Assembly (NCBI GenBank): GCA_018398765.1 | Contig: JAHBMJ010000181.1 | Span: 23,073 to 56,573 of the forward strand | Origin: Chromera velia | Lineage: Eukaryota; Sar; Chromeraceae | Direction: 5' to 3' | DNA length: 33,501 nucleotides | In this document: in pieces, positions 14,218-31,566 of the stretch | How positions within the stretch are numbered: position 1 is the first letter of the stretch | Layout of the letters: every line of letters starts with the position of its first letter | Program-made: the position numbers and the translations under genes | Notes under the pieces: model-generated | Seen by the model: only the letters and a program-made list of their open reading frames with translations | The model's database searches: none | What the model was told of the DNA's origin: nothing

Positions 14218-14453
14218 CGCATGCCGAGGGGGAGTAGGGTGCTTTTTGTCCCCCCCTCTGTATAGGAGACCGGCGCTTAAAGTTTTCCACAAAAAACTCG
14301 TTCTCATAATTGGTAAGGAGTTCGAAGCTGAAACTTTGTGTAAAAAGACATTGTAACGATAAAAAAAGAACCATGAAACAGATTTTTTATATTATTTCTA
14401 GAAATATAGGCTGCCATACAAATTTTATGAGTTTCATACCATTTTTCTTACTA
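14218..14453 (+). repeat. PLE-1 outer inverted repeat, left arm
   Basis: It runs from CGCATGCCGAGGG to about TTACTATTG and matches the reverse complement of 21527-21760 with scattered substitutions and indels. Shared blocks include AAAAAACTCGTTCT, AATTGGTAAGGAGTT, GAAGCTGAAACTTTGT and TTTCTAGAAATATAGGCTGC. It directly abuts the left pseudo-LTR. Confidence 0.85.
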
Positions 14454-14460
14454 TTGAAAA

Positions 14461-14771
14461 CTGTAATGGAGATTCTAGGAAATTGAAAGTCTCTTCCAAC
14501 AGCTGAGATCCTATGTTGTCTGTGCACAAATGTATCGGTAGGAGCACACGGTCAATCTACCATAATCCAGTACAATCCAACAGGCTGCTGTCTGATTCAA
14601 TTGGAATTTATCGAATACATGCTAATTACACGACATACAAAAAACGCATGCATGCGAAAAACCATCGGAGACTAACGCTTCGCATACACGCCGAGCTAAA
14701 CATTAATAGCTCAAAATCAGCATGCTAATTAATCGCAGTATTACGTCGATCCTTGCAAGCCGATAGATAGA
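14461..14771 (-). repeat. PLE-1 pseudo-LTR, left copy (3' side)
   Basis: It matches 21216-21526 in the same orientation at a constant offset of 6755 bp with about ten substitutions. Shared blocks include GAAATTGAAAGTCTCTTCC and GCATGCATGCGAAAAACC. Direct terminal repeats of this kind are typical of Penelope-like elements and arise from tandem or template-jumped copies rather than LTR-type replication. No CTGANGA...GAAA hammerhead core was found on either strand. Confidence 0.85.
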
Positions 14772-14917
14772 TCATAGACATGATTAGAGAACACACGTAG
14801 TGTTCCGCACGCGACGCCCCTCCGTATCTATACCGCTGTCTTTTGTCTATCGCTGACGGTTCTTAGGTGCACTTGCGGAAGCAAACGACAACAAAAGGCC
14901 GTAACGTTGAAAATCAG

Positions 14918-16668
14918 TCATATGTAGATTATTTTAGAACAAAACAAAGAAAGGACAAAGAGAAGACCATCATCACCAGTCCGACGGACTGCAGACATGA
15001 ACAAATCAAGCAAAAACAAAACAGGCCATCTCAAAATATACAACTCCAAAAACAGAAAAGTAAGTTCGTCAACCAGGACAACCGCAGGTACATTACAAGA
15101 AAGAAGTGTCCGAATAAGATGAGAGGATATTAGGCCCTTCTTAGCCGAAACAGAAGGAACACAGGAGAAAGCATACATCAGATGCACTCTACGAAGTGAA
15201 GGTAGGTTAGGAAAAGACGACCATCCTCCAGAAATGGGCAACAGAGAAAAAGCAACCAAATCACGAAAGAAATTAAAAAGAACATCACGGTTAGGATTAA
15301 CAGCAGCAAAAAGCAAAATCGAAGGAGATTCCGGCAAAGAGAAAAGACGCAGACCAAGCACCGTAGATCCCTTCTGACGCTCTAAAATGTATGTAGGACT
15401 GTAGAAGTCTTCCTCAAGTAACTTTTCCATGATGGGGTCATCCGACACGTCACTCATACCACAGTCAGACCTAAAAACAATCGTTCTATCGTCCATATAT
15501 CTCCCTGCTATCCATTTCTCCCCCTCCCATGAAGGCTTCGATCTCATCAATGCAACAGAGTACTCTTTCCACGAGGCAAAAAATCGGGCCTCGCCAGGAG
15601 AGCATGGACTCCCTTGAGGAAAACCTTCATGCCGTTTGACCATCTTCCCTCGAACTCGAATTACATTCGAAACAAAATCAAGATTAATTATACGAACCAG
15701 CATATCAAGAGGGCAAGAAAGTGCATTCGCATAATTGCAGTGGGAGGATAAAAAAGCACTAGGTTTTAAGTAACGTCTCCAAGAATACCACTTCTTACGC
15801 TTTCCCGGACCCGCCTCCTTAATACAAAAAGACTTATGGGTCGGCAACACAACAAAGCGATATCTAGAGGAAGAATGAATGAAATGAATAAAGTTATTCA
15901 AACAAGAAAGGAAATTAGCTCTGGATAGAGAGGGAAAAAATGCTTTGATGTCGTCCACCAGTAGACCAAGTCCACTCCGAGGCCAATACGAATTAGAAGA
16001 AACACAAGAGCCACGATTTGCAAGTCTCCCAAACCCTGAATTAAAGATCCCAACCTTATCCTGAAAAGCAAAGACAGAGTCAAAGTCACAATGCGGCGAA
16101 AAGTAAGAAAGACAGCCATTCAAAGCCTTGCAAAGGAAAGAGAAAATCTCACGTCTGGCATGCCTCTTGTAAGATACCAATGGCCTGTACTTCAAAGAGG
16201 ACCAAGACTCAGGGAGCTCCCCCTCAACTCCCCAAGACTTATGTTTCACCCAAAGGATCCCAATCCCAAAGTGGTGTTTCTTCCTGTCGAATTTCTTGAA
16301 CTGATTCAAAAAAGACACCCATGCATCCTTTTTATTCTGAAAACCATTCTCCAGAAGGTCCAGAGAAGCAGAAAACTCACCCTCCCCAATTTTTCTATAA
16401 GAAGAATCAAAAAGAAAAGCTCTCGCCACTGCCTCAATGTATTTCCCTTTACACAAAAAAGCCAGATCTCCTCTGGCCTTATCAACTAGCATAACCGCTA
16501 GAGCAGTCAATAACTTTCTGATTGCCATAGACTGATTGCCATAGACTTCCTTGGGACGGCCGGCCCCTTTCTCATTTGCCTGAGCATACGAAAGCGTTGA
16601 AACCCACCACTCCCGAAGGTCGGCAATCATTGCAGGAGACAAGACCCCTTTCATTGACCTGCCTCTTG
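14918..16668 (-). CDS. PLE-1 reverse transcriptase, catalytic and C-terminal part
   Basis: RNA-templated DNA synthesis for element copying. Visible motifs: YRPLVSYKRHARREIF (template-binding region), motif A LLVDDIKAFFPSL, motif B GFPQGSPCSPGEARF, motif C AGRYMDDRTIVF (YMDD at 15488-15499), then TVLGLRLF and a hydrophobic C-terminal thumb. All catalytic Asp residues are present. The open frame ends at TAA 14918. The apparent start crosses the N at 16669 and is artificial. The stretch 15711-16668 is repeated at 16670-17627; skipping the repeat joins this frame to 18132-17628 without a shift. YMDD differs from the YIDD/YVDD usual in Penelope-like RTs. Confidence 0.82.
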
Positions 16669-17627
16669 NGGGCAAGAAAGTGCATTCGCATAATTGCAGT
16701 GGGAGGATAAAAAAGCACTAGGTTTTAAGTAACGTCTCCAAGAATACCACTTCTTACGCTTTCCCGGACCCGCCTCCTTAATACAAAAAGACTTATGGGT
16801 CGGCAACACAACAAAGCGATATCTAGAGGAAGAATGAATGAAATGAATAAAGTTATTCAAACAAGAAAGGAAATTAGCTCTGGATAGAGAGGGAAAAAAT
16901 GCTTTGATGTCGTCCACCAGTAGACCAAGTCCACTCCGAGGCCAATACGAATTAGAAGAAACACAAGAGCCACGATTTGCAAGTCTCCCAAACCCTGAAT
17001 TAAAGATCCCAACCTTATCCTGAAAAGCAAAGACAGAGTCAAAGTCACAATGCGGCGAAAAGTAAGAAAGACAGCCATTCAAAGCCTTGCAAAGGAAAGA
17101 GAAAATCTCACGTCTGGCATGCCTCTTGTAAGATACCAATGGCCTGTACTTCAAAGAGGACCAAGACTCAGGGAGCTCCCCCTCAACTCCCCAAGACTTA
17201 CGTTTCACCCAAAGGATCCCAATCCCAAAGTGGTGTTTCTTCCTGTCGAATTTCTTGAACTGATTCAAAAAAGACACCCATGCATCCTTTTTATTCTGAA
17301 AACCATTCTCCAGAAGGTCCAGAGAAGCAGAAAACTCACCCTCCCCAATTTTTCTATAAGAAGAATCAAAAAGAAAAGCTCTCGCCACTGCCTCAATGTA
17401 TTTCCCTTTACACAAAAAAGCCAGATCTCCTCTGGCCTTATCAACTAGCATAACCGCTAGAGCAGTCAATAACTTTCTGATTGCCATAGACTGATTGCCA
17501 TAGACTTCCTTGGGACGGCCGGCCCCTTTCTCATTTGCCTGAGCATACGAAAGCGTTGAAACCCACCACTCCCGAAGGTCGGCAATCATTGCAGGAGACA
17601 AGACCCCTTTCATTGACCTGCCTCTTG
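15711..17627. repeat. 958-bp tandem duplication joined by a single N (probable assembly artefact)
   Basis: 15711-16668 and 16670-17627 are identical except for at least one substitution (T versus C, His versus Arg codon, near 16242/17201). The junction is exactly the N at 16669. The duplication breaks the RT frame (959 bp is not a multiple of 3), and removing one copy restores it. The pattern fits two contig ends that overlap by 958 bp and were joined without merging. Confidence 0.88.
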
Positions 17628-18132
17628 TATTCTCCCTCCCCCTCCCCCTTCCCATTATCCTTCCTAGACCAACCCCGTCCCGAGTGCCACCATCAGAAGT
17701 GAGAACAGAACGGAGGAAAGACTCAATACCCTTCGAGACAACATTCCATGCACCAGTGTTAGGCCATAATTTGGCCTTGGAAGAAAAGTTAGGAGGAAGA
17801 GAGAAGAAAGATCTAAGAGAAGAAGATGCAGACAGTAGACAACACACATGACCATCAAGCAAAGGAAGATCAAATAATTCCGCAATCTCTCTACAATGAC
17901 ATGACGATCCATAAGAAGAACCTTCACCCCCTCCTCCTTCCCCACAAATCCCATATGTATTGTCCAAAGTCTGTTGGAGATCAGTCAGCTTTGTAGGGAG
18001 AAGGCGAAGCCTCATGTTTAACAATGGAGACACAGTTTTCCTTATCTCCTCAAACATGGCAAAATAAAAAGATCGGAAAAAAAACAAGTCGGCGAGGGGC
18101 ACCCGAATCGTAATCAGCTCCTCTCTGAGCAA
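16670..18132 (-). CDS. PLE-1 reverse transcriptase, N-terminal part plus duplicated core
   Basis: It continues the GIY-YIG frame after a single TAG (18145-18147). The first codon here is TTG, so this is not an independent start. 18132 to 17628 is unique: SAATLLREEL, a Gly-rich CGEGGGGEG stretch, SCHCREIAELF, then GRGRGRENTRGRSMKG. After that the sequence duplicates 15711-16668 and is cut at the N. I do not see the DKG motif of canonical Penelope RTs in the unique part, as reported for the permuted group. Functionally it should be read together with 14918-16668 as one RT of roughly 750 codons after collapsing the duplication. Confidence 0.75.
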
Positions 18133-18144
18133 AGTCGCTGCTGA

Positions 18145-19446
18145 CTAGCCATTGAACTTGCACATTCGTCTCACATTCAAGTCAAAAGTTGCCTTCCCTC
18201 CCCCAAGAATCCCGCCCCTGGGCACCATGCGCATACATGCACTCAAATCATTCTTCGTCGTATCAAATGAACGAAAAGACGAATCGGGAAGGACCTTCTT
18301 GAACAATGCAGTCAGCAGTCGTGCACAAAAAAGAGAAATCACGTCCCCTTCCCCTCTTTTCGCCCCCACACCCTCTTTGCCAGTGACCCTATAGAGGAAA
18401 AGGGAGCGAGATTGGAAAATGCCCCCTTTATCAACTCTTCCCGCCAACTTCAACATGTGAACAGAAGATTCAAGTCTCCTCCTCAGACTTGAGACCCTGT
18501 CACTACACCTGCACGCAATTGAGCGAACATCCCTTTTATTAGGGTCCCTCAAATTACGCACCGGGTCATTCTTGAATCTCTTCAACACACCAATTGTATT
18601 CCATGTAGGTTTGTATGCACGAATACATAAGTATTCCATCATGCGCAAATTCATCTGACCACCCTCAATCTTTGTAATAGGAAGGATAACAAAGAGGCCA
18701 TGTCTGGAAGCATCAGCAGACAAAACAGAATAGAAGCGATATGCATACCCACGACCCATCTTATTACATTTCTTCCCAACGCGACATGGTTTTAATGCAC
18801 TCGTGAGGTGCTGAAAGAACCGATCGAGCGCCCTACCAACGGTACTTCCAATATAAAAGCCTCTCTTCCATTGTGACCAAATCAAATATATTACTCCCTT
18901 GTCCCACCATGATGCATCCTCTCCCACCCCCGCACAAGCATTCTTGACCTCTCTCAGAAAGGAAGAATATTTCATATTAGACAGACCTAACCATGTAGAA
19001 GCAGCCAGCGAATGGGAATATACAAGTCTCCTCAAACATTTCTGACTAAACCCTCTCTTAAAGACAGTCCGAAGCTTGCAAGAAGGATTCATCACATCCT
19101 CAGGAGACGCAGGCATAACATGGAGAGTGTATGAAGGTGGCTGTGTTATCTGAATGACAAGAACCGTCGTCAATGGGCAATCGCATCTGTGAATCTCCAA
19201 TACGCAAACAGGACAGGCTTGAACTGCGTGCACATGGAGGGATGCAACAAACATCCGCACCCCAGCCAATCTGAGGGAAAGACGATCAAGGTCAGACTCC
19301 ACTTTCTCTCTCACACTTTCCCTGCCAAAACCCCTTCCATTCCCTGTATCCTTCCCAATCACTCCAACCAGTTCCCTCACTTTCTCATGTAATTCATCAG
19401 ACAAAGACAACAAAAAAGAGGAATCAAAATTAATTTGAACATTCAA
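18145..19446 (-). CDS. PLE-1 GIY-YIG endonuclease domain protein
   Basis: It would cut target DNA for insertion. GIY-YIG signature: VIYLIW (residues 185-190), FYIGST (197-202), Arg205/Arg209, His213, and the catalytic Glu in MMEYLCIRAYKPTWN (Glu271). Upstream is a Cys/His group, CPVC (78-81) and HRCDC (86-90), which could be the zinc finger that accompanies the nuclease in permuted Penelope elements. Downstream is a second Cys group (IACRCSD). The displayed start is TTG; the frame is open upstream to TGA 19486. It ends in TAG 18145 and the RT follows in the same frame four codons later, so nuclease and RT were or are one polyprotein. Confidence 0.83.
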   Translation of the reverse strand: MNVQINFDSSFLLSLSDELHEKVRELVGVIGKDTGNGRGFGRESVREKVESDLDRLSLRLAGVRMFVASLHVHAVQACPVCVLEIHRCDCPLTTVLVIQITQPPSYTLHVMPASPEDVMNPSCKLRTVFKRGFSQKCLRRLVYSHSLAASTWLGLSNMKYSSFLREVKNACAGVGEDASWWDKGVIYLIWSQWKRGFYIGSTVGRALDRFFQHLTSALKPCRVGKKCNKMGRGYAYRFYSVLSADASRHGLFVILPITKIEGGQMNLRMMEYLCIRAYKPTWNTIGVLKRFKNDPVRNLRDPNKRDVRSIACRCSDRVSSLRRRLESSVHMLKLAGRVDKGGIFQSRSLFLYRVTGKEGVGAKRGEGDVISLFCARLLTALFKKVLPDSSFRSFDTTKNDLSACMRMVPRGGILGGGKATFDLNVRRMCKFNG

Positions 19447-19485
19447 CTGACCACTGCTCCTCCTGACATGCTCTTGAGTCCCTAG

Positions 19486-19911
19486 TCACTCAAGTCCCAG
19501 CTGGCGACCTCCCATTCCCTTCTCCCCCTCTCCTTCCTTCTTCTGCTGCAGACAGAGAGCCTCAACCCTCTTCTTCTGTATGATGAAAGCATAAACGAGT
19601 TCCAGAAGGTCACAGCCCTCCAGATCCCCGTCCACTGCACTGTCCCTCAGCGCTGAGATCATCTCCCTCCTCATCTGGCCCCGCCGTGTTTCACTGTACA
19701 TGACAGACACCATCAGTCTGGCATCATCTATACATTCTTGCCAGAGTTTCCCCCCTAGACCTCCATTCTTCGGTTGTCGATATACCGGAAGGTCAACCAG
19801 TGTCTCGTATGCGATCCTCCCACCTACCATCGGCACATTTAGGGGGAAGATTTGCATTTCATTCATTGTGGGCCTGTCCCTCCCAGCAGACGATGGTCTG
19901 AAAGGCGTCAT
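19486..19911 (-). CDS. PLE-1 ORF1-like region, C-terminal part
   Basis: It is in the same frame as the GIY-YIG ORF, ending at TGA 19486 only 40 bases before it. It starts with an ATG at 19911, just after TGA 19921. The predicted protein is helical and charged (ECIDDARLMVSVMYSETRRGQ, LLELVYAFIIQKKRVEAL) and ends in a KKEGEGEKG tail. No domain is recognised. It may be the C-terminal part of an RNA-binding ORF1 product or an N-terminal extension of the nuclease-RT polyprotein. Confidence 0.5.
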   Translation of the reverse strand: MTPFRPSSAGRDRPTMNEMQIFPLNVPMVGGRIAYETLVDLPVYRQPKNGGLGGKLWQECIDDARLMVSVMYSETRRGQMRREMISALRDSAVDGDLEGCDLLELVYAFIIQKKRVEALCLQQKKEGEGEKGMGGRQLGLE

Positions 19912-19920
19912 AGCTCTCTT

Positions 19921-20223
19921 TCACATCTGCTGACCCTCTCCCTCTCTCTCCTCCATGGATTTTGGGGTCACGAACCCCGAGTTTGTATTCCCCTGCTTCC
20001 CCTCCAAGGAATGCGTTACCTGCCTCACTCGCTTAGGTGACCCTGTCCCTGTCTGCCTCCCAAAGCTATCCTGCATCCCTCCCCCCCCCACCCCGTTCGC
20101 CCCTGTATTACCGTTCACTCTCGGCCTTCCGTTAGACACCATCAGACTAATTCCCCCATCCCCGTTCTTCCCATCATTCATCCCTCTGTTCACCATTCCA
20201 ACCCCCCCCAGTCTGGCGTACAT
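19921..20223 (-). CDS. PLE-1 ORF1-like region, Gly/Asn-rich linker
   Basis: It lies in the same frame as 19486-19911. The protein is low-complexity (Gly, Asn, Arg, Thr; for example NGNTGANGVGGGGMQDSF) and probably disordered. It overlaps the end of the next upstream ORF (20174) in another frame. The switch lies at a C run near 20199-20208, so a homopolymer indel probably separates one original frame. TGA 19921 ends it. Confidence 0.45.
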   Translation of the reverse strand: MYARLGGVGMVNRGMNDGKNGDGGISLMVSNGRPRVNGNTGANGVGGGGMQDSFGRQTGTGSPKRVRQVTHSLEGKQGNTNSGFVTPKSMEEREGEGQQM

Positions 20224-20884
20224 CCACCCCTGTGTTCGGAATCCCCTTCTCTGTCACCCCAGAGCCATCTACATCTACATCCTCAACTGTGATCCCCCCT
20301 GATTGGATGTCACAGATCGGGTACATAGAGTGTTTCCCACCCATCGGCCAACTCCCCCCTCCTCTCCGGGTTTTCTTCATCTCTTCCTGAAGACGAACAA
20401 CCCACCCATGAATTTCCATGACTCCATGCTCTTTCACCATCTCCGTCACTGAGCACAACATCTCACTCGCCACATCTACCTGTGCCCCCGCTCTGGCAGC
20501 TATATATTCAGTGGCCAGGTGTGCGTCAATGTATGCAGCCCCCTCACTTCTCACTTTGTTTGTCAGCCTCCGGTTGTATTCTCTGTATTCCATTCCCTTC
20601 TGCATCATCATATACTCCTTTTTGGATTTCGAGAACACCCTGTCGAGCGGTATCTGAAGCATTGGCATCAACACCCCCTCCACCATCTCATCACACGCTT
20701 CTTTCACCTCCATCATTCCGATATGTGCCTTTTCGTTTATCTCTCCCCCCTTCTTCATTTTCCTCAACGGCACGATCAGTCTATCGTATGCCTTTTTATT
20801 CATTACCTCCACCTTCATAGAGGACTCGAGGGCATCCTTGTTCATGGCTTTCAAATTCGCAGCGTCTGCCACCCTCATCTTCAC
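20174..20884 (-). CDS. PLE-1 ORF1-like helical protein
   Basis: A 236-residue open stretch, strongly helical and charged, with many Met, Lys and Glu (KAMNKDALESSMKVEVMNKKAY; MEYREYNRRLTNKVRSEGAAY). This is suggestive of a coiled-coil, multimerising or Gag-like ORF1 protein. The displayed start is GTG; the frame is the same as 20891-21103, interrupted by TAG 20891. No family is recognised. The C-terminal residues after about 20205 are probably out of frame because of the C run. Confidence 0.55.
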   Translation of the reverse strand: MKMRVADAANLKAMNKDALESSMKVEVMNKKAYDRLIVPLRKMKKGGEINEKAHIGMMEVKEACDEMVEGVLMPMLQIPLDRVFSKSKKEYMMMQKGMEYREYNRRLTNKVRSEGAAYIDAHLATEYIAARAGAQVDVASEMLCSVTEMVKEHGVMEIHGWVVRLQEEMKKTRRGGGSWPMGGKHSMYPICDIQSGGITVEDVDVDGSGVTEKGIPNTGVDVRQTGGGWNGEQRDE

Positions 20885-20890
20885 CAGGAC

Positions 20891-21184
20891 CTATTCTGTT
20901 ATTCCCGTCTTCTCTGTGTCGAACGTATGGATGATGACTTCGTCCGCCTTCAGCTCATGACCCGGTAGATATCGTTTCACAACCATTCTATCTGGGATCC
21001 TCTTCCTTGGCTCAACCATTCTCCCCATATCCGGGGGCGCCTCTTCCACTTCCACCTGACCGAGCCGTTCTTTCACTGACTTGTACATCTCTGAGTCCCT
21101 CAAGTGCCTAAGAATCAGTCTATAAGGACAGTAGAGAGACTGGACCTCACTGCATACACATGACGGTCTATAGAACTCTAAGGT
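20891..21184 (-). CDS. PLE-1 ORF1-like N-terminus
   Basis: The frame is open from about 21184, about 30 bp inside the right pseudo-LTR, down to TAG 20891. The first ATG is at 21088 (MYKSVKERLG). The upstream part without ATG still reads protein-like (YRLILRHLRDSE). The sequence then gives RYLPGHELKADEVIIHTFD. After the TAG the frame continues into 20884-20174. No recognised domain. Confidence 0.5.
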   Translation of the reverse strand, partial: TLEFYRPSCVCSEVQSLYCPYRLILRHLRDSEMYKSVKERLGQVEVEEAPPDMGRMVEPRKRIPDRMVVKRYLPGHELKADEVIIHTFDTEKTGITE

Positions 21185-21215
21185 TCAAGGTAAGGAGCCA
21201 ACCTGGAAAAAGAAT

Positions 21216-21526
21216 CTATAATAGAGATTCTAAGAAATTGAAAGTCTCTTCCAACAGCTGAGATCCTATGTTGTCTATGCACAAATATGTTGGTAGGAGC
21301 ACACGGTCAATCTACCATAATCCAGTACAATCCAACAAGCTGCTGTCTGATTCAATTGGAATTTATCGAATACATGCTAATTACACGACATACAAAAGAC
21401 GCATGCATGCGAAAAACCATCGGAGACTGACGCTTCGCATACACGCCGAGCTAAACATTAATAGCTCGAAATCAGCATACCAATTAATCGCAGTATTACG
21501 TCGATCCTTGCAAGCCGATGGATAGA
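21216..21526 (-). repeat. PLE-1 pseudo-LTR, right copy (5' side)
   Basis: Direct copy of 14461-14771 at a 6755-bp offset; no indel was noticed. Being upstream of the minus-strand ORFs, it should contain the promoter if the element is like other Penelope elements, whose pseudo-LTRs carry it. Confidence 0.85.
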
Positions 21527-21760
21527 CTGTTAAAAAATGGCCCGAAAATCAAAAAAATTGTATGGCAGCCTATATTTCTAGAAATGGCATTGATATAAAA
21601 AATCTGTTCCATAGTTATCCACAGTTCTTTTTTTATTGTTACAACGTCTTTTTATACAAAGTTTCAGCTTCTAACTCCTTACCAATTCTCAGAACGAGTT
21701 TTTTATGGAAATACGCCGCTTTAGAGAGGCAAAAAATACCCTACTCGCCCCCAGCATGCG
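21527..21760 (-). repeat. PLE-1 outer inverted repeat, right arm
   Basis: Its reverse complement matches 14218-14453. It directly adjoins the right pseudo-LTR, giving the symmetric order inverted arm, direct repeat, coding, direct repeat, inverted arm. An open frame across it on the + strand is incidental. Confidence 0.85.
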
Positions 21761-22862: not shown

Positions 22863-22920
22863 TCGCCCCTCCACACTCCTTGCACTTGTTTCATTCGCGG
22901 CCGTGCTCACAGATACTGCC
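22863..22920 (-). pseudogene. 58-bp fragment of the ICEHGR-repeat gene at the PLE-2 border
   Basis: It matches 30252-30309, inside the array of the 29956-31566 gene, at 56 of 58 bases. Minus-strand translation gives GSICEHGRERNKCKECGG-like residues, about one repeat unit. It stops exactly where the PLE-2 palindromic leader begins (22921-22927). It is either the remains of another repeat gene hit by PLE-2 or sequence carried along by the element. Confidence 0.85.
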
Positions 22921-22926
22921 AGAAGA

Positions 22927-23001
22927 TCTTTTAATTCTTCCTGCAGGAAGAATTAAAAGACCTGCAGGAAGAATTAAAAGATCCAGGAAGAATTAAAAGA
23001 T
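22927..23001. repeat. 34-bp perfect palindrome and triplicated GGAAGAATTAAAAGA
   Basis: 22927-22960 is a perfect palindrome with 15-bp arms (TCTTTTAATTCTTCC and its complement) around TGCA. The right arm GGAAGAATTAAAAGA then recurs at about 22965 and 22986, where it becomes the start of the pseudo-LTR. The second element end (28231-28264) has the palindrome once, with one mismatch. Confidence 0.9.
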
Positions 23002-23512
23002 CTTTTGATAGTATCATCCCCTGGGTGGCCTAAAGAAATTTCCTATTTTTTATTTTTTAATTTTTTTCTATTTTCTATTTTTTATTTTTTATTTTTTTCA
23101 GAACCAGACTCTTCATTCTATGCTATTTTATTTTATCTTTATCATTTTTTCTTTAACCTTTTTTTTGAAAAAACTGTTTGCAAATAATATGCAAAATTGA
23201 ATTTTTTTAAAAAAAACTGTTTGCAGATAATATGCAAAATTAAAAAATTTGAAAAACGGCTCCGCGTCTCGACAGACGCCTGTAGTTTAGATACACTCTT
23301 TTCTTCTTTGTCTATGTCAAAGGTGACATAAACAAGAAAAGGAGTGAAGATTGTTGTAGAACATTGGTTTCACTATTTAGGACCTCTGTTACGAGAAAAG
23401 GAACTGAATTCCTCCTGATGAGAAGCGCTGGCTTCGAAACGCGTTGAGTTTCTATTCAGTTTTCCTGGTCTCACAATCGCTGAAGAAAGAGACTACTAAA
23501 AAAATTATCTAT
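22985..23512 (+). repeat. PLE-2 pseudo-LTR A
   Basis: Direct repeat of about 28250-28790; the copies are nearly identical except in the T-rich tract (about 23040-23100). It carries a tandem AAACTGTTTGCA.ATAATATGCAAAATT repeat (about 23173-23240), two short hairpins (23264-23279 and 23313-23330) and a hammerhead ribozyme. It presumably holds the promoter; no TATA box was assigned. Confidence 0.9.
23400..23463 (+). ncRNA. Hammerhead ribozyme (type I) in pseudo-LTR A
   Basis: Core CTGATGA at 23415-23421. Stem II is GAAGC / GCTTC (23422-23426 with 23431-23435) with loop GCTG. GAA follows at 23436-23438, then a very short stem III (A23439-C23440 pairing G23443-T23444, loop GC). The cleavage triplet is GTT (23443-23445), so self-cleavage is expected after 23445. 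Stem I has CTC/GAG next to the core (23412-23414 with 23446-23448), an internal loop, then 8 bp AACTGAAT / ATTCAGTT (23402-23409 with 23454-23461). The minimal stem III with palindromic ACGCGT resembles hammerheads of Penelope-like elements, which may act as dimers. Confidence 0.85.
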
Positions 23513-23572
23513 CGGTTTACCGATCTCTTTCTTTAGTTCTATTCTTTACTTCAGTCCTCATAAGTCATAGAC

Positions 23573-24772
23573 TTGGAGGAGAGCCGCGCATTTATTTCAC
23601 GTTTTCTTCTTCCTACGCCCGCGGAAGATCTAGAGCCCAACGTTCAGCCCCAGATCGCGGGACGCACTTTGTTGTGTTACAAAAAATATGTCAAAATTGG
23701 ACAGTCTCAATTTTTTCTTTTGAAGGGGTTCGATGCTACCACCCGCGATGAGCTTGGCATTGGCAAGCACCCTTGTCTTCTCCTTGCACTGCTTCATCAG
23801 CTCGAACCCGCTCTGGTAAGAGACCTTGCGTTTGAAAGCTCGGTCCTGTGGGTGCGAGACAGAAACCCCACCCCAGAAAGAGCTGGGCTTGACCCCCTCC
23901 TTTCCTCCATTATCGACACCTTCTACCATGACCTCTTCAAAGCTTTCCCTGCAAAAGCAGAAGAATTGCTGACCAAAGTGAAAAGAAACCCAGAAAAGTT
24001 TGGCCTGCAGATTGCGGACCCGCAAGCCGCTAGAGCTGACGCCGACGCGGGCGCACCTGCCGCAGCCGCAGCCGCACAGCACGCCGCAGGCGCAAACCCT
24101 TCCCATCAGCACGACAGTGGGGGAGCAGAAGGCGATGATGACGATTGGGAAGAGCTGGTCATCGTTGACAATGGAGACAGAAGGGACGATGGAGACGGGT
24201 CTGGAGACGGGTCAGGAAGCAATGATCAGGGCAGAGACGCACCAGCCGACCCACAGTCCCAAATCCAATCTGACGCCCCTCAGTCTCAAATCCAATCTGA
24301 TGCTCCCCAGTCTCAAAACCAATCCGACTCCCACGAGGCCTGGCTTACGAGCTCGTGCCTCCCAGTCGACAAACGGTTCTGGTACTCAGGCCTTAGAAGA
24401 ACCACAGACTCCCTCCTGAAAGTAGGGAAGTCGTTTACCTATCTTCCCCAGTGGGCTGTCGACCAATTTGAGTCAGACGTCAATGACCTTTTCAGCTCGG
24501 TGCAGAGAAGCCTGAATGAGTTGAGAGTTCGAGCTCGCACTTCTGAACTATTCGCCTTCTGTAAAACAGCCTTCCAGATTCTGGAACAAGCAGATTCGCA
24601 GGCTCGAAAGCTGCAAGGCGTAGAAGGAGTCACAAAAGATGACATCAACCAAGTGGTTGCCTCCATTCTCCACCGTCACCACCGAGCGCAGGTGGCCAGA
24701 AACCGAGCTAAGCTGCAGCTCGCTCTCGCCGCAGCCACCGAGCAGAGAGAGAGAGACGCACAGGCTGACTAG
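23573..24772 (+). CDS. PLE-2 ORF1, N-terminal and central part
   Basis: An open stretch of about 399 residues, unrecognised in family. The N-terminal 170 residues look globular (CLLLALLHQLEPALVRDLAF; SSIIDTFYHDLFKAF). An Ala/acidic low-complexity middle follows (GGAEGDDDDWEELVIVDNGD) with three 9-residue PQSQIQSDA units (about 24251-24330). A second helical region comes after it (SVQRSLNELRVRARTSELFA; VARNRAKLQLALAAATEQRE). The displayed start is TTG, and no in-frame ATG occurs in the whole stretch; the frame opens after TAA 23561. Translation therefore needs a non-AUG start, an upstream exon, or the frame is decayed. TAG 24770 ends it, but the frame continues coding. Confidence 0.65.
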   Translation: MEESRAFISRFLLPTPAEDLEPNVQPQIAGRTLLCYKKYVKIGQSQFFLLKGFDATTRDELGIGKHPCLLLALLHQLEPALVRDLAFESSVLWVRDRNPTPERAGLDPLLSSIIDTFYHDLFKAFPAKAEELLTKVKRNPEKFGLQIADPQAARADADAGAPAAAAAAQHAAGANPSHQHDSGGAEGDDDDWEELVIVDNGDRRDDGDGSGDGSGSNDQGRDAPADPQSQIQSDAPQSQIQSDAPQSQNQSDSHEAWLTSSCLPVDKRFWYSGLRRTTDSLLKVGKSFTYLPQWAVDQFESDVNDLFSSVQRSLNELRVRARTSELFAFCKTAFQILEQADSQARKLQGVEGVTKDDINQVVASILHRHHRAQVARNRAKLQLALAAATEQRERDAQAD

Positions 24773-25402
24773 CTCGAGAAGGAGCTCGGACAGTACATGT
24801 CTGAACCCTTCATGACACTGATGGGTGCTGTTGAGCACACAGTGAACAGACTGCTCAGTCAGAAAGAGAAAGAAAAAGTGGAGAACGAGAGAAAAGCACC
24901 CCTACCCGAGAAAAGAAAGCAGCCTAGAAGCCCCAACCCTAACAAGAATAAGAAACAGCGTGGGAAGGGCAACTCGCTGAACGAGAATCAAAATCCCGGA
25001 TTTTCTTCGAACGCGAGAGGTGGAGGGCAACCTCAGTGGGCGTAACCCAACCAGCAGGGGGGGATGCATGGAAGACAACAGCAGGCTGGGATCTCAAACC
25101 AGAATGGGATCTTTCCATTCCCACTGAGCGAGAATCAGAACAGAAAGGCAGGACAGGGAGTGATCCCAAGTCAGCAAGTGATCCCAAGTCAGCAAGTGAA
25201 CAACCCTCAGTTCTTCCAGAATGCAGAGGGGTTCACCGGACTTTTGGGTGCAGCAGTAGCGCTTGGGAATGGATGGTACCAGCAAGGTAACCACGCCTGG
25301 TGCAAAGTTCAACCCCAAGCATCCGCCCTACCCAACGGTCCGGGAGCGAATAGAATAATTTTCTCTCAGCCCCTCTTGCCTCCACCGGGCTTCCTCCCTT
25401 AA
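24773..25402 (+). pseudogene. PLE-2 ORF1 continuation beyond in-frame stops
   Basis: Same frame as ORF1. It starts LEKELGQYMSEPFMTLMGAV, then a basic Lys/Arg/Pro/Asn-rich tract (EKRKQPRSPNPNKNKKQRGK), TAA 25043, then a Gln/Asn/Gly/Pro-rich region with a doubled VIPSQQ unit and TGLLGAAVALGNGWYQQ, ending at TAA 25400. Composition remains protein-like and in phase across both stops; CAG-to-TAG and CAA-to-TAA changes would explain them. It looks like the nucleic-acid-binding half of ORF1. Confidence 0.55.
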
Positions 25403-25663
25403 GGACCCCAGGGCCAGACCCTGCGACTCGCAAATCATCAGGGGAGAGGAACCGGAAGAGTCTCCGGCTCTCGAGGCAGAGGCCGAAGGCCTGAGGGCCC
25501 AAGACCTCCCGGGGGATTCAACAACACAGGGGATCCATCCAGAGGAAACATCAGAGGAGGATTCGCTCCTCGAGGCGCTCGAGGGGGACAGTCCCACGGA
25601 AGAAGACCTCCGAGAGGCAGTGCCTTTCGAGGAGGCACCCACGGGGGGAGAGCAGGGTGATCG
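25403..25663 (+). pseudogene. PLE-2 ORF1 RGG-box tail
   Basis: Still in the ORF1 frame after TAA 25400, the sequence reads as an Arg/Gly-rich tail with RGRGRR, RGNIRGGFAPRGARGG and RGGTHGGRAG, ending at TGA 25661. RGG boxes bind RNA and are a plausible chaperone or RNP function for a retroelement ORF1 protein. The tail is visible only if the preceding stops are read through or are recent mutations. Confidence 0.6.
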
Positions 25664-25904
25664 CAATGAACTTTCTTCCCTTTTCCGCATTCGTCCTCTT
25701 TTCTCTCATTCCTCCTTCTTTTATTCCCCCACCCTTCCATCATAACGCTCCTCTTCTTCTTCTTCTTCCTTTTATTTTCCCGAGCTGACAAAGTTTTTCA
25801 GTCCCTCTCTGTGTCAGTTTGGAGACGAATTCGAATTTCCTTTTTCAGAAACTTGCATCTCCACTTCGCTTGTCCGTCTTTCTCCTTCTCCCTCCCCCCT
25901 TTCC

Positions 25905-26306
25905 TTGCATGATACCGTCTCTTCTTTACAATTCTGCCCCCGCCTCCGCACCCATCAGAAAAGAAAAGGGCAGAATAAGCTTGAATGGAAAGGGACTGGA
26001 CAAAAGCAATTGAAAGAGGAGTACATAAGCAGACTAATGAGAACCAAAGATGAAGGCAGAAGAAAAAAGATTGTCGAAAGCTTCGTGCGGGAAAGATGGC
26101 TGCGACTGCCTGTGGCCACTGCAGAAGCTAACGTAATCTCTCCGACTTGGCATGCAATAGGTCTCAAGCCTTCAGACCTCTCCTCCACAGAAAAAGCCCT
26201 TCTTGCCCTAGGTGCGAAATTCATCGCCGAAGCACCTGTCAGCACGCGTCAGCTTCTGTCTGGTCTAGTTGATGGGGTAAATGAACTTGCACGCACGGCA
26301 GAGTAG
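25905..26306 (+). CDS. PLE-2 RT N-terminal region
   Basis: ALLALGAKFIAEAP and the following helix (LLSGLVDGVNELARTA) match the conserved region N-terminal to Penelope-like RTs (leucine-rich 'LLSLGLNF.PTP' type). The displayed start is TTG and may be arbitrary; the region before about residue 30 is basic. It ends at TAG 26304, and the same frame continues into 26346, so this is the front part of one RT protein. Confidence 0.7.
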   Translation: MHDTVSSLQFCPRLRTHQKRKGQNKLEWKGTGQKQLKEEYISRLMRTKDEGRRKKIVESFVRERWLRLPVATAEANVISPTWHAIGLKPSDLSSTEKALLALGAKFIAEAPVSTRQLLSGLVDGVNELARTAE

Positions 26307-26345
26307 GCCCATTTTTTCGAAGCGAGTGGGAACGGAGGGAACGCA

Positions 26346-27245
26346 ATGCCTCGTCTTTTCTCTACATCAGGGAGATGGCTAAATAAATCAAAAGTAATTC
26401 GTACCCCACCTTCTCTCTCTCGTTTCTCTGTTGCACCTATTTTATCTGCCCTGCACCACTCTGGTGCTTCTCTTTTTCCTCGATGCCGACCTAACCTCCC
26501 TTCTGATGCGTTTGACGCGATCGAATCTTTAGGGAAAAGGGTCAAAATAGTCATGATGGACAAAGGAATGGGGGTGGGCAGCGTGGGTCCGACGTGGTAT
26601 GATGGAGAAGTCTTTAGACAGCTCGACGATCTGTCTGCGTATGAGCATCTGGAGGGGTCCCCTCTGGAAGAAGAGAAGAGAATGATCCGAAAGCTTGTCG
26701 GTGTCCTTGATTATCTCGACTCTGATATCGCAAAATACGTGAGAAGAGAATCGCTGACAAGGATTGAGAAAGCAATGCTCCCTGAATTCTTTCTCGTTAT
26801 TAAGATTCATAAAAATCCTATCGTCGGACAACCCATCGTGCCTCTGTGCGTGTCCCTTTTTGCACCAATACATCGAATTATGGCTCTCTCCCTCCAACCT
26901 TTCGCCGTGAATCGACCCCAACACCTGATTTCCTCCGCAGAAGTTGTTCAAAGGTTTGAAGGGAAACGAATCCCTGCTTCTTCTTTTGTGTGGACTGCTG
27001 ACATCTCTTCCCTCTACACGTCTCTCCTTCAGTCCGAAATCATTCATGAAGTGGTCTCTTTGCTGAAGCAACATCCATCCTACTTCTGCAATGGTATGAC
27101 ACCAACTCCCCAATTCCAACTCCCCCCCTACTTCCCTGAGCAAGAGAAGACTTGCAAAACCCTTCAAATCTGGTACACCATACTAAAGAGCATGTTGCAA
27201 GTTAAGTTTCAATACACAGACAGAGACGGCAATGTTTCCTTTTAG
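26346..27245 (+). CDS. PLE-2 reverse transcriptase, fingers and motif A
   Basis: Canonical Penelope-like RT features: VKIVMMDKGMGVG contains the DKG motif with Tyr and Leu-Asp following (WYDGEVFRQLDD). FFLVIKIHKNPIVGQPIV is the 'K.HK.P...RPI' region with Gln in place of Arg. VWTADISSLYTSLL is motif A with the diagnostic SLYT. The ATG at 26346 is internal to the longer frame. TAG 27243 cuts the protein just before motif B (RQKGGVPMGS), and the frame continues in phase. The catalytic Asp of motif A is present. Confidence 0.85.
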   Translation: MPRLFSTSGRWLNKSKVIRTPPSLSRFSVAPILSALHHSGASLFPRCRPNLPSDAFDAIESLGKRVKIVMMDKGMGVGSVGPTWYDGEVFRQLDDLSAYEHLEGSPLEEEKRMIRKLVGVLDYLDSDIAKYVRRESLTRIEKAMLPEFFLVIKIHKNPIVGQPIVPLCVSLFAPIHRIMALSLQPFAVNRPQHLISSAEVVQRFEGKRIPASSFVWTADISSLYTSLLQSEIIHEVVSLLKQHPSYFCNGMTPTPQFQLPPYFPEQEKTCKTLQIWYTILKSMLQVKFQYTDRDGNVSF

Positions 27246-28088
27246 AGACAGAAAGGCGGAGTACCAATGGGGTCTGCAGCTGGGGGGACAATCGCAGACA
27301 TTGTGCTTGCATACAAATATGAGAAATTTCTTTCTGACCACCGTCGTCCTCCTTCTCTGGAGGAATTTCTCCGCTACATTGATGACGTGATTGGAATCTG
27401 GAGTAGGACAAAGACTGAACTTGAAACCTTTCTTCGTTCTTTTTTTGTTTTTACCGACCCTGACACAAAATTATCGTTTGGTTTAATCAAGATTTTTAGA
27501 GCAGATGAGTTGATTTACGTGCCCATTATTTATTTAGATGTTGAGATCTGGGGGAAATGGGATGGCGACGGGTGGATTCGTTTGTTTATGCGCCCCCACA
27601 CTAAAGCATTAAGTGCTCATCAATACATTGCATGGTCGTCCGCTCACCGCCCCTCCTCCAAACTGATTCGCAGGCTGCGTCTCTGCTCAGACGAGAGCAC
27701 CTTCAGAAAGGAAAAGAAAGAAGTTGTCATTCGTTTCTTGAAGAGGGGATACCCACTCAAGTGTGTGCTGAGGGTCTCGAACGAAGTGAAGTTTGAAATG
27801 AGAAACAGAGAGAGAAGAAAGGTGCTCTGCTCAGTCGACCGCCTCAAGCGAGAAGCAGCAGATACAATTCAGTTCAGTCAAAATCCCCTAAAAGGGTCTG
27901 TTGGGTTCGCTCATTCCCAATCTCTTTTCTTTAAAGTTAGCGGAAATCGACAAGTTGATCCGGTAGCAAAAGTAATCAGAAAGAAATTGGGAGCGAAAAC
28001 TTCGTTTCGTATCCTTATTGCAAGAAAAAACCCTCCAAACATCTTTTTTCTGTTCAAGAAAGCATGGAAAAACCATTTTCATGCCTGA
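27246..28088 (+). CDS. PLE-2 reverse transcriptase, motifs B and C to C-terminus
   Basis: It continues the RT: RQKGGVPMGSAAGG (motif B), RYIDDVIGIW (motif C with both catalytic Asp), then a beta segment ending YLDVEIWG, like the 'fLD..i' of Penelope RT, and a thumb-like basic region. It ends at 28088 after FKKAWKNHFHA. No GIY-YIG signature (Y-x-G-x-T with Arg, Glu) follows in any frame before the pseudo-LTR, so the element lacks its own nuclease here. ATG 27267 is the Met of PMGS, not a real start. Confidence 0.85.
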   Translation, partial: RQKGGVPMGSAAGGTIADIVLAYKYEKFLSDHRRPPSLEEFLRYIDDVIGIWSRTKTELETFLRSFFVFTDPDTKLSFGLIKIFRADELIYVPIIYLDVEIWGKWDGDGWIRLFMRPHTKALSAHQYIAWSSAHRPSSKLIRRLRLCSDESTFRKEKKEVVIRFLKRGYPLKCVLRVSNEVKFEMRNRERRKVLCSVDRLKREAADTIQFSQNPLKGSVGFAHSQSLFFKVSGNRQVDPVAKVIRKKLGAKTSFRILIARKNPPNIFFLFKKAWKNHFHA

Positions 28089-28249
28089 ACTTGTTTGAAT
28101 CCATTCCTCAACATAGCCAGTGGTCACTTGAATCCGACCTAATCTGACCAAATTTTAAGAGAAACTTTCAACTAAGTCGCCGTCTCATTGCAAGTCTTCT
28201 TGGTTGTTAAGTCCTTTGCCCTCAGGAGATTTTTTTAATTCTTCCTGCA

Positions 28250-28790
28250 GGAAGAATTAAAAGATCTTTTGATAGTATCATCCCCTGGGTGGCCTAAAGA
28301 AATTTCCTATTTTTTATTTCCTATTTTTTATTTTTTAATTTTTTTCTATTTTCTATTTTTTATTTTTTATTCTTTTCAGAGCCAGACTCTTCATTCTATT
28401 ATATTTTATTTTATCTTTATCATTTTTTCTTTAACCTTTTTTTTGAAAAAACTGTTTGCAGATAATATGCAAAATTGAAAATTTTTTGAAAAAACTGTTT
28501 GCAGATAATATGTAAAATTAAAAAATTTGAAAAACGGCTCCGCGTCTCAACAGACGCCTGTAGTTTGGATACACTCTTTTCTTCTTTGTCTATGTCAAAG
28601 GTGACATAAACAAGAAAAGGAGTGAAGATTGTTGTAGGACATTGGTTTCACTATTTAGGACCTCTGTTACGAGAAAAGGAACTGAATTCCTCCTGACGAG
28701 AAGCGCTGGCTTCGAAACGCGTTGAGTTTCTATTCAGTTTTCCTGGTCTCACAATCGCTGAAGAAAGAGACCACTGAAAAAATTATCTAT
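28250..28790 (+). repeat. PLE-2 pseudo-LTR B
   Basis: Direct copy of pseudo-LTR A. Preserved elements: the hairpin GCGTCT / AGACGC (28542-28557; loop CAAC versus CGAC in A), the hairpin TATGTCA / TGACATA (28591-28608) and a hammerhead. It is preceded by an almost perfect palindrome (28231-28264). Confidence 0.9.
28678..28741 (+). ncRNA. Hammerhead ribozyme (type I) in pseudo-LTR B
   Basis: Same fold as in copy A with core CTGACGA (28693-28699); position 7 is variable in hammerheads (CUGANGA), so the change T to C is neutral. Stem II is 28700-28704 with 28709-28713, GAA 28714-28716, short stem III, cleavage after 28723. The stem I outer helix is 28680-28687 with 28732-28739. Confidence 0.85.
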
Positions 28791-29955: not shown

Positions 29956-31566
29956 TCATGCACAGACCCCCTCAGTCCTCCAGGAGGCACAAAGAGATAC
30001 AGTTGGCCACAGAAAGAGACTGATGCAGTCAGAGAAGACATGGTTGGGGCGAATGGAAGCTCGGGAGGCAGAGTGTGCAGGCAACTGGAGCTTGGCAATG
30101 CATTCGCAAGAATATCGTCGATCCTTTTCATGAACACAGAGTGCCTTCCCTCCGCACTCCTTGCACTGAGAGCGCTGCCGGCCGTGCTCACAAATGCTAG
30201 TGCCTCCAGACTTCTTGCACTGAGAGCGAACGCGACCGTGCTCACAGATGCTCGCCCCTCCACACTCCTTGCACTTGTTCCGTTCGCGGCCGTGCTCACA
30301 GATACTGCCCCCTCCACAGTCTCTACATCGAGTGCGGAGCCGGGCGTGCTCACAAATGCCCCCACCTTTACACTCCTTGCACTGAGAGCGAATGCGACCG
30401 TGCTGACAAATGCTCGCCCCTCCACACTCCTTGCACTGAGAGCGAATGCGACCGTGCTCACAAATGCTCGCCCCTCCGCACTCCTTGCACTGAGAGCGCT
30501 TCCGGTCATGTTCACAAATGCTTTTGCCTCCACACTCCTTGCACGTAAACCGTTCGCGGCCGTGCTGGCAGATGCTCTTCCCTCCACACTCCTTGCACTG
30601 CGAACGCCGTCGGCCGTGCTCACAGATGCTCGCCCCCCCACACTCCTTGCACTGCGAGCGAATGCGACCGTGCTCACAAATGCCACTACCTCCACACTCC
30701 TTGCACCGCGAGCGCCGTCGACCGAACTCACAAATGCCACTACCTCCACACTCCTTGCACTGATAGCGGATGCGGCCGTGCTCACAAATGCCTCGCCCTC
30801 CGCACTCTTTGCATGTGTGACGCTCTCGGCCGTGCTCACAAATACCCTTCCCTCCACACTCCTTGCACTTGCTGCGAACCCGCCCATGCAAGCAGAGAAC
30901 CTGCCCATGGCGGTTCCTCTTCACCTCTTCCCCTTCTCTGCCCCCCCGACGACGATTCTCACAGACGACCTCTTTCTCTCCACCGACCGGACCCCCCCTC
31001 CCTCTCTCAGGTTTGGAACACAGAGGGGCAGAGTCCGAAGCTGTTTCAGACACACTCAACCGACGCTGCTTCTCTTCCCGCAAGCAATCCCCATCCATTC
31101 CCCCTCCCCGCGAAGCAACATCTCTTCTGTGAGAACAACAGCCAGACACCCCATCGCACACGTCAGCCTCGACCTGAGAAACTGCACTCTCAGACCGACG
31201 ACGCTTCAAGGGAAGCCCCCTCGTCTGCTGCCCCTCTTCTTGTTGTCTCTGAGTGAGGGTGCAGTCATGGAAAGGCAGATGGGTGGAGGTCGAAGGGTGG
31301 AAGGGAAGGATTCTGTTGTCAGTCATGATATCAACGACTCTCTCAGAAGTTAGAGTCAGAACAGTCCAAATTCTTCTCACTGTCCTTCTCCCGCTGATTC
31401 TGTCTCCCTGACTCTCCCCCCCCCCTGTCGCCCCCACCCATTTCCCTCTGACTGTCGGACCCTCTGACCTCAACAGCTGACTGAGAAGAACAAACAGAGA
31501 CGGCTGAAGCCCCTTTCTGTTCATCAGTGCTTTTGAACATTTCTGACTCCCCCTCTCCGACCTCAT
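29956..31566 (-). CDS. Protein with 14 tandem 18-residue CKECGGxSICEHGRxRSQ repeats
   Basis: The N-terminal 220 residues are Arg/Ser/Gly-rich and look disordered. Then come 14 units of 18 residues (30112-30867, 54-bp DNA period), each C-x2-C-x5-C-x-H, e.g. CKECGGASICEHGRIRSQ. The regular three Cys plus one His per unit suggests one zinc site per repeat. Variants: unit 10 CKECKGGGICEHARLRTR, unit 11 starts CRDC, and unit 13 loses its second Cys (CKKS). From memory such ICEHGR/CKECGG arrays occur in many algae, oomycetes and giant viruses, with no established function. The C-terminal about 50 residues are unrelated. ATG at 31566 may be false: the CBM20 ORF overlaps in another frame and probably joins it. 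Confidence 0.85.
   Translation of the reverse strand: MRSERGSQKCSKALMNRKGLQPSLFVLLSQLLRSEGPTVRGKWVGATGGGESQGDRISGRRTVRRIWTVLTLTSERVVDIMTDNRILPFHPSTSTHLPFHDCTLTQRQQEEGQQTRGLPLKRRRSESAVSQVEADVCDGVSGCCSHRRDVASRGGGMDGDCLREEKQRRLSVSETASDSAPLCSKPERGRGGPVGGEKEVVCENRRRGGREGEEVKRNRHGQVLCLHGRVRSKCKECGGKGICEHGRERHTCKECGGRGICEHGRIRYQCKECGGSGICEFGRRRSRCKECGGSGICEHGRIRSQCKECGGASICEHGRRRSQCKECGGKSICQHGRERFTCKECGGKSICEHDRKRSQCKECGGASICEHGRIRSQCKECGGASICQHGRIRSQCKECKGGGICEHARLRTRCRDCGGGSICEHGRERNKCKECGGASICEHGRVRSQCKKSGGTSICEHGRQRSQCKECGGKALCVHEKDRRYSCECIAKLQLPAHSASRASIRPNHVFSDCISLFLWPTVSLCASWRTEGVCA
30112..30867 (-). repeat. Tandem 54-bp repeat array (14 units) coding the ICEHGR units
   Basis: CACTCCTTGCA recurs every 54 bp, from 30856-30867 down to 30154-30165. 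DNA units differ mainly at third positions and at the two variable residue slots. The mirror + strand open frame over the array is only its shadow. Confidence 0.92.

Follow-up and report, generated by a model that had tools for sequence, protein, structure and literature searches.

Minimal hammerhead motifs in a decayed Penelope-like element of Chromera velia, and short insertions in related families that look like footprints of self-cleavage

Penelope-like elements (PLEs) reportedly carry minimal type I hammerhead ribozymes in their pseudo-long terminal repeats (pseudo-LTRs), as is said to have been described by Cervera and de la Pena in 2014 and by Lunse et al. in 2017. This article deals with one such element in a 33,501-nt stretch of the genome of Chromera velia (contig JAHBMJ010000181.1, positions 23,073 to 56,573 of the forward strand; hereafter the window), and with related families in the same genome. 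As in the PLE hammerheads already described, those of the window stand in both pseudo-LTRs, have a type I layout and a minimal stem III, and are self-complementary in stem III, which is thus able to pair between two copies; they differ in their algal host and 8-bp outer stem I, and in that other families of the same genome have insertions starting at the predicted cut. PLE hammerheads also occur in other protists, so the algal host is not unique. The presence of hammerheads in PLE repeats is already established, and the window pair adds another member, within a decayed copy. Short insertions in two of the other families suggest that PLE RNA may cleave itself in cells. Such insertions would be a fossil record of cleavage, countable in other PLE-bearing genomes without RNA, and they suggest a concrete and testable role, the limiting of full-length copying, for ribozymes whose role in PLEs is termed a mystery in the available part of one account (PMC7761336). 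The result from these two families makes cleavage in cells testable from genomes.

With endonuclease-deficient PLEs and Terminons, as the accessible portion of PMC6431247 presents them, the window element has in common two open reading frames (ORFs), no detectable GIY-YIG domain and a hammerhead near the 3′ end. Unlike Terminons, Athena and Coprina, it has no telomere-like repeats, either in the window or in 65 genomic loci of which part of each neighbourhood was covered, and its copies are interspersed; unlike Terminons, moreover, a 13-nt direct repeat is found here at C1403 (C numbers denote contigs, and L numbers loci, of the genome), and the repeats are spaced 5.3 kb apart in family A, that of the window, and 6.9 kb apart in family B. 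PAc, a Poseidon element of Anolis, likewise has its hammerhead upstream of an internal start site for the reverse transcriptase (RT), but unlike the window element it has a GIY-YIG domain and a hammerhead that overlaps the start of the ORF (PMC11167929, in excerpt). Retrozymes also bear hammerheads in the terminal repeats of a retroelement, although, in contrast to the RT-coding element of the window, they are described in the available text of PMC4918200 as non-autonomous and as spreading through circular RNAs.

Both direct repeats of the window hold a complete type I hammerhead with core, stems and GTT triplet, much as a first-pass annotation of this DNA had claimed. The 5′ copy (23402..23461, + strand) has a CTGATGA core, GTT and a predicted cut after 23445, and the 3′ copy (28680..28739, + strand) a CTGACGA core, GTT and a predicted cut after 28723. 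In each, the outer stem I is AACTGAAT/ATTCAGTT (8 bp), the inner stem I CTC/GAG (3 bp) and stem II GAAGC/GCTTC (5 bp, with a GCTG loop), followed by GAA, stem III AC-GC-GT (2 bp, 2-nt loop) and GTT. The two 60-mers are identical except at core position 7, which is, as annotated, the sole core change, and the annotated cuts were found where they had been placed, 5278 nt apart. Both copies match the consensus core (CUGANGA, GAA, GUH), with stems II and III, and are open at stem I. A scan that demanded at least 3 bp in stem I, 4 bp in stem II, 2 bp in stem III and 7 bp in the outer helix was applied to 672 Markov shuffles of 158,502 bases and found two matches, or 0.019 per Mb per strand; with 8 bp or more demanded in the outer helix, the same shuffles gave none. 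On this showing, the window motifs are consensus type I hammerheads and no chance match. Their folding energy is ordinary, as 12/200 and 22/200 shuffles fold as well, and the lowest-energy fold of a single window copy differs from the hammerhead; when two copies are co-folded, in family A or B, the dimeric hammerhead pairing is obtained, but its energy gain is unremarkable, being equalled or exceeded by 154 of 200 shuffles in the case of the family A copy.

The genome searched amounts to 177.8 Mb in 4040 contigs, and in it the family A repeat has eight matches, two of them partial (C1744 and C3949), and the window RT piece 36. Four further hammerhead sets (B, C, D and E) have the same core and different stems. 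RT matches adjoin three of these, B and C at RT loci and D at C2956; in the 10-kb loci of C1217 (set D) and C3881 (set E), no RT was found. Family B repeats are paired about 6.9 kb apart in four contigs. All core letters are kept in five of seven family A hammerheads (C3949 apart), four of the nine displayed for B (C3880 and C2695 being unmatched by the display pattern), one of three in C, both in D and the single one in E; a copy with full core letters and a cleavable triplet is thus present at least once in all five sets. Where a catalytic G8 or G12 has been lost, the change is often G to A (L006, L017, L028, L032, L033, L053 and L054), and the lost G mostly follows C, as expected from CpG decay. 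The matches of sets D and E to the type I model of Rfam are weak and below threshold; the set E hammerhead, at L059 5550-5630 (C3881) and scored in Rfam as L007 with 28.8 bits, is possibly that of a non-autonomous carrier.

Indirect evidence for cleavage comes from truncated copies, the starts of which are given here as offsets, the base just past the predicted cut being counted as 0. In family C, 12 copies spread over 11 places are truncated within the repeat and run on to the 3′ end, with offsets of -183, -112, -59, -56, -15, -9, -2, -2, -1, 0, 0 and +12; five of these starts fall within 2 nt of the bond (P 1.2e-6 under uniform starts), and a 5-nt window as dense anywhere in the repeat arose in 3 of 20000 random draws. 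With C664 counted once and merged with C1602, the figure becomes 4/10 (P 1.9e-5). The count excludes C1396, which starts at the first base of the repeat, C2344, which starts outside it (query 271), and matches that fall short of the 3′ end. C995 starts exactly at the bond, and C664 at the bond or one nucleotide inside. In the latter locus (L074), two short units of family C are joined, one by its 3′ end to the start of the predicted 3′ cleavage product in the other, as might come about by template jumping. At C2519, a 10-nt word is common to both sides of the insertion, clipped by the end of the stretch examined.

For family B, a 2488-nt query found ten truncated copies that reach the 3′ end, two starting outside the repeat and eight inside, the latter at offsets of -451, -412, -350, -156, 0, +7, +8 and +10. 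This count includes C1912, which starts at 2012 and is split in two by 3 kb, and leaves out copies that reach the start of the query or the end of a contig, six starts at 1960-1962, C1374 and C3704 (both starting outside the repeat) and an inverted piece at C2090, a locus that is an inverted double insertion at a near-palindromic site. C79 starts at the bond or within 2 nt of it and includes the 3′ strand of stem I in full. Comparison by eye with the rest of family B places the start of C3773 at +5 and that of C1403 possibly at +6, alongside a small deletion; 13-nt direct repeat copies flank C1403, with 11 extra nucleotides on the 3′ side, and the short piece therefore itself seems to have been inserted. 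Across families A to D, 6 of 23 starts inside the repeat lie within 2 nt of the cut. The genomic traces that match the cut are pieces of 55-72 nt lying downstream of it, and they belong to families B and C, not to the window's own family A. They resemble cDNA made from the 3′ cleavage product, that is, footprints of cleavage in cells; where a copy starts at the bond, the likeliest reading is that its template RNA ended there, having been cut. For family A, cleavage activity would follow by analogy only. No report of insertions starting at PLE hammerhead cuts was found in the open-licence literature, a scope outside which two central PLE-hammerhead papers fall.

The other end of the copies is nearly fixed. 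Those of families A and B end alike at ATTATC, beyond which their flanks differ, and the distance from the predicted cut to ATTATC is 64 nt in 7/7 family A hammerheads (the 5′ copy of the window being internal among them); of 11 family B loci examined, 10 show the same distance and the eleventh (C2695) gave no match for it. The letters that follow are AG at 8/10 family B loci and TAT at three of six outer family A ends, and so the true 3′ end may lie slightly beyond ATTATC. Family C copies end about 64-70 nt past the predicted cut; in family D, four matches end 54-57 nt past it and the diverged C2956 48 nt. At the opposite end, six family B repeat matches begin at the palindrome (query 1960-1962). 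Because family B repeats start there and copies of A and B end at ATTATC, neither beginning nor ending at the cut, the 5278-nt self-cleaved monomer predicted by the annotation stands as a spacing between cuts and is weakened as the RNA of the element. Since these copies run past the predicted cut to ATTATC, their template RNA was uncut at the 3′ hammerhead.

Taken as a whole, these observations are probably best explained by a hammerhead that cuts, a short tail that is reverse-transcribed and inserted, and full-length copying that is limited as a result. The element RNA would bear its hammerhead some 55-70 nt before the near-fixed 3′ end, at which, to judge from the constancy of that end, reverse transcription presumably starts. 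An RNA left uncut would give a long copy that keeps the hammerhead, and copies running past the cut are indeed observed; cutting would separate the 3′ tail from the coding RNA. If the RT can still use the short tail, insertions of 55-72 nt starting at or near the cut would follow, cleavage being their presumed cause, and cutting would also deprive the coding RNA of its start site and in this way limit full-length copying. We lean, by a little, towards the more general proposition that PLE hammerheads cut in living cells, that the released RNA of about 55-72 nt keeps the RT start site and is inserted, and that the ribozyme is a brake whose cleavage is readable from genomes.

That the stems have been maintained is suggested by paired change. 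In 12 aligned sequences with one structure (the two window copies, the diverged C3949 and nine of family B), 10 of 18 pairs are altered on both sides; sliding the partners yields 0-3 such pairs, and 6/500 letter shuffles reach 10. In the A/B alignment, then, the hammerhead stems appear to have been kept by paired change. MAFFT alignments of family A with the other families were set aside, as the cores were misaligned.

A number of points weigh against this account of cleavage and insertion. In family C, the T residues on either side of the bond leave the starts of C2519, C675 and C1602 uncertain by 1-2 nt, and with only the two exact BLAST starts counted P rises to 8e-4; C1602 and C664 have the letters after the 3′ end in common and may not be independent; the target position was derived before the search for truncations and recorded only afterwards. 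In family B, just one of the four short copies has its start exactly at the cut; 1/8 starts lie within 2 nt (P 0.08) and 4/8 within 11 nt (P 2.8e-4), and the start of the inverted extra piece of C2090 lies 31 nt inside (+31). Families A and D have no starts at the cut (0/1 and 0/2, or 0/3 together), the one truncation in A lying 55 nt upstream and the two in D 69 and 49 nt upstream. Uniform starts are, besides, a simple null, and real truncation may favour short copies. As for the paired changes, 3 of the 18 pairs do not form in most rows, shuffles do as well in the number of pair types (139/500), and the alignment was fitted to the structure, with most of the signal coming from one contrast, A versus B. 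The bare core pattern GAAACGCGT is near chance in the genome: it has 13 matches, of which 5 belong to family A or to the diverged relative C3949 of that family, and a backward control has 10; this search is not used as evidence. A covariance-model scan, the annotation's own check on the pair, turned out negative: the hammerhead models of Rfam have no match in the window at E 1, nor at E 10 in 101 bases around the 5′ copy alone. Rfam was also run on five other loci of the genome, and the test looks insensitive for hammerheads of this kind, because two longer motifs of the same genome, sets E and D, reach only 28.8 and 22.1 bits with RF00163, the gathering score of which is 34. A covariance model built from five family A copies recovers family A by construction and, weakly, the same site elsewhere (C3949 at 23.7 bits, family B at 20.4 down to 11.5 bits). 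Finally, in the available part of the work on PAc (PMC11167929), hammerhead mutants still insert in vitro and there are no RNA-seq ends at the cut; the same text gives unprocessed RNA as the dominant template in vitro, and together with the behaviour of the mutants this fits a ribozyme that would limit full-length copying.

Short copies might instead have arisen from an RT that stopped at the folded hammerhead of an uncut RNA. Three family B starts, 7-10 nt inside, do fall within the 3′ strand of stem I, and C1744 (family A) and C2813 (family D) are truncated near the upstream edge of the hammerhead. A block at stem I should, however, stop the RT before that 3′ strand is copied, and C79 and five family C copies contain the whole of it, ending at the bond itself or no more than 2 nt away; at C664, moreover, the 3′ end of a unit adjoins base one or two past the cut in the next unit, as expected for the end of a template. 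A block by the fold would suit the family B starts inside stem I and would suit those of family C poorly, and we regard it as unlikely to account for the short copies. It is also doubtful, if less strongly so, that the fold acts chiefly in recognition by the RT, or in spacing, at the 3′ end, its cutting being incidental. The cut lies 64 nt from ATTATC in both A and B though their tails, from stem I to the last 8 nt, agree at only 12/40 positions, no more than in shuffles (P 0.27); the distances in C and D are those given above; and Terminons are described with the hammerhead as a 3′-terminal fold (PMC6431247, in part). A purely binding fold would nevertheless need no catalytic letters, of which each of the five sets keeps at least one complete copy, and A and B are related, so that an equal tail length may be inherited.

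The hammerheads of the window could, on the other hand, be inert relics, in a copy that is dead and has kept the motif only through recent insertion. Both window ORFs contain in-frame stops, and core letters have been lost in two of seven family A hammerheads, five of the nine displayed for B and two of three in C. Relic status is true of this copy as an autonomous element, but the paired changes between families indicate past selection on the fold, and as an account of the hammerheads we consider it rather improbable. As for mere chance resemblance to a hammerhead, the near-chance core pattern, the negative Rfam result and the ordinary folding energy would all agree with it; the stem requirements, by contrast, leave a chance rate near 0.02 per Mb per strand, the paired changes and the repeated link to RT loci also speak against it, and it can be given hardly any credence.

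The element itself is a decayed two-ORF PLE without a detectable GIY-YIG domain and with a minimal type I hammerhead in each pseudo-LTR, as judged from its sequence. Its 5′ pseudo-LTR (family A) extends from a palindrome at about 22929 to 23509 (+), with direct repeats, a palindrome match at C180:46001-46035 and ATTATC at 23504-23509, and the 3′ pseudo-LTR (28232..28787, +) begins with the palindrome and ends at ATTATC, the last 64 nt (28724..28787, +), from the predicted cut to ATTATC, being the 3′ end of the element. At the 5′ junction lies an inverted piece of the pseudo-LTR start (22912..22958, -), 94% complementary to 28233-28279. Direct pseudo-LTRs, a 5′ palindrome and an inverted piece at the junction are all found here, and are described as PLE features in the accessible text of PMC3846280; they bear out the pseudo-LTR pair and Penelope-like anatomy put forward by the annotation, in which the decay of this copy was absent. 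The ORF1 region (23573..25660, +) has in-frame stops at 24770, 25043, 25400 and 25658, an RGG-rich end and, in its pieces, no Pfam domain above cut-off. The ORF2 region (25905..28088, +), which corresponds to the RT, is interrupted by TAG at 26304 and 27243, and two of its pieces are 51-52% identical to the open sister frame L063. With Pfam RVT_1 (cut-off 29.6 bits), the sister frames L063 and L053 score 19.7 and 24.1 bits, both below cut-off, and the window pieces are unmatched; relatives of the RT were found neither in PDB, by sequence or profile, nor in NCBIfam or viral contigs. For GIY-YIG, Pfam gave no match to L063 or to the pieces of the ORFs that lie between stops, though a diverged domain could be missed. 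The PLE assignment rests on anatomy, on PLE-like RT motifs recognized by eye, and on the hammerheads. No target repeat was recognized around the element, the longest words common to its flanks being 9 nt. The 58 nt directly upstream of it (22863-22920) are 97% identical to 30252-30309, within a gene with a 54-nt tandem repeat, and may be filler copied into the 5′ junction.

The genome of the host has 58 matches to light-harvesting proteins and is therefore taken as algal, in line with the alga-like character that the annotation had ascribed to it. Photo_RC has no match in this genome; there are 11 matches of alveolin type, to a model that also matches in Caulobacter. Elsewhere in the window, a second repeat-bounded unit (14284-21711) has direct repeats at 14458 and 21213 that share 95% identity across 300 nt; inverted arms lie beyond these repeats, and the four ORFs within the unit lack a Pfam match at E 0.01. 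A 521-aa ORF at 4152-5717 (-) has a strong RVT_1 match (E 3.2e-30) and represents another retroelement, and the 54-nt tandem repeat at 30074-30967 runs through twelve register steps inside long ORFs.

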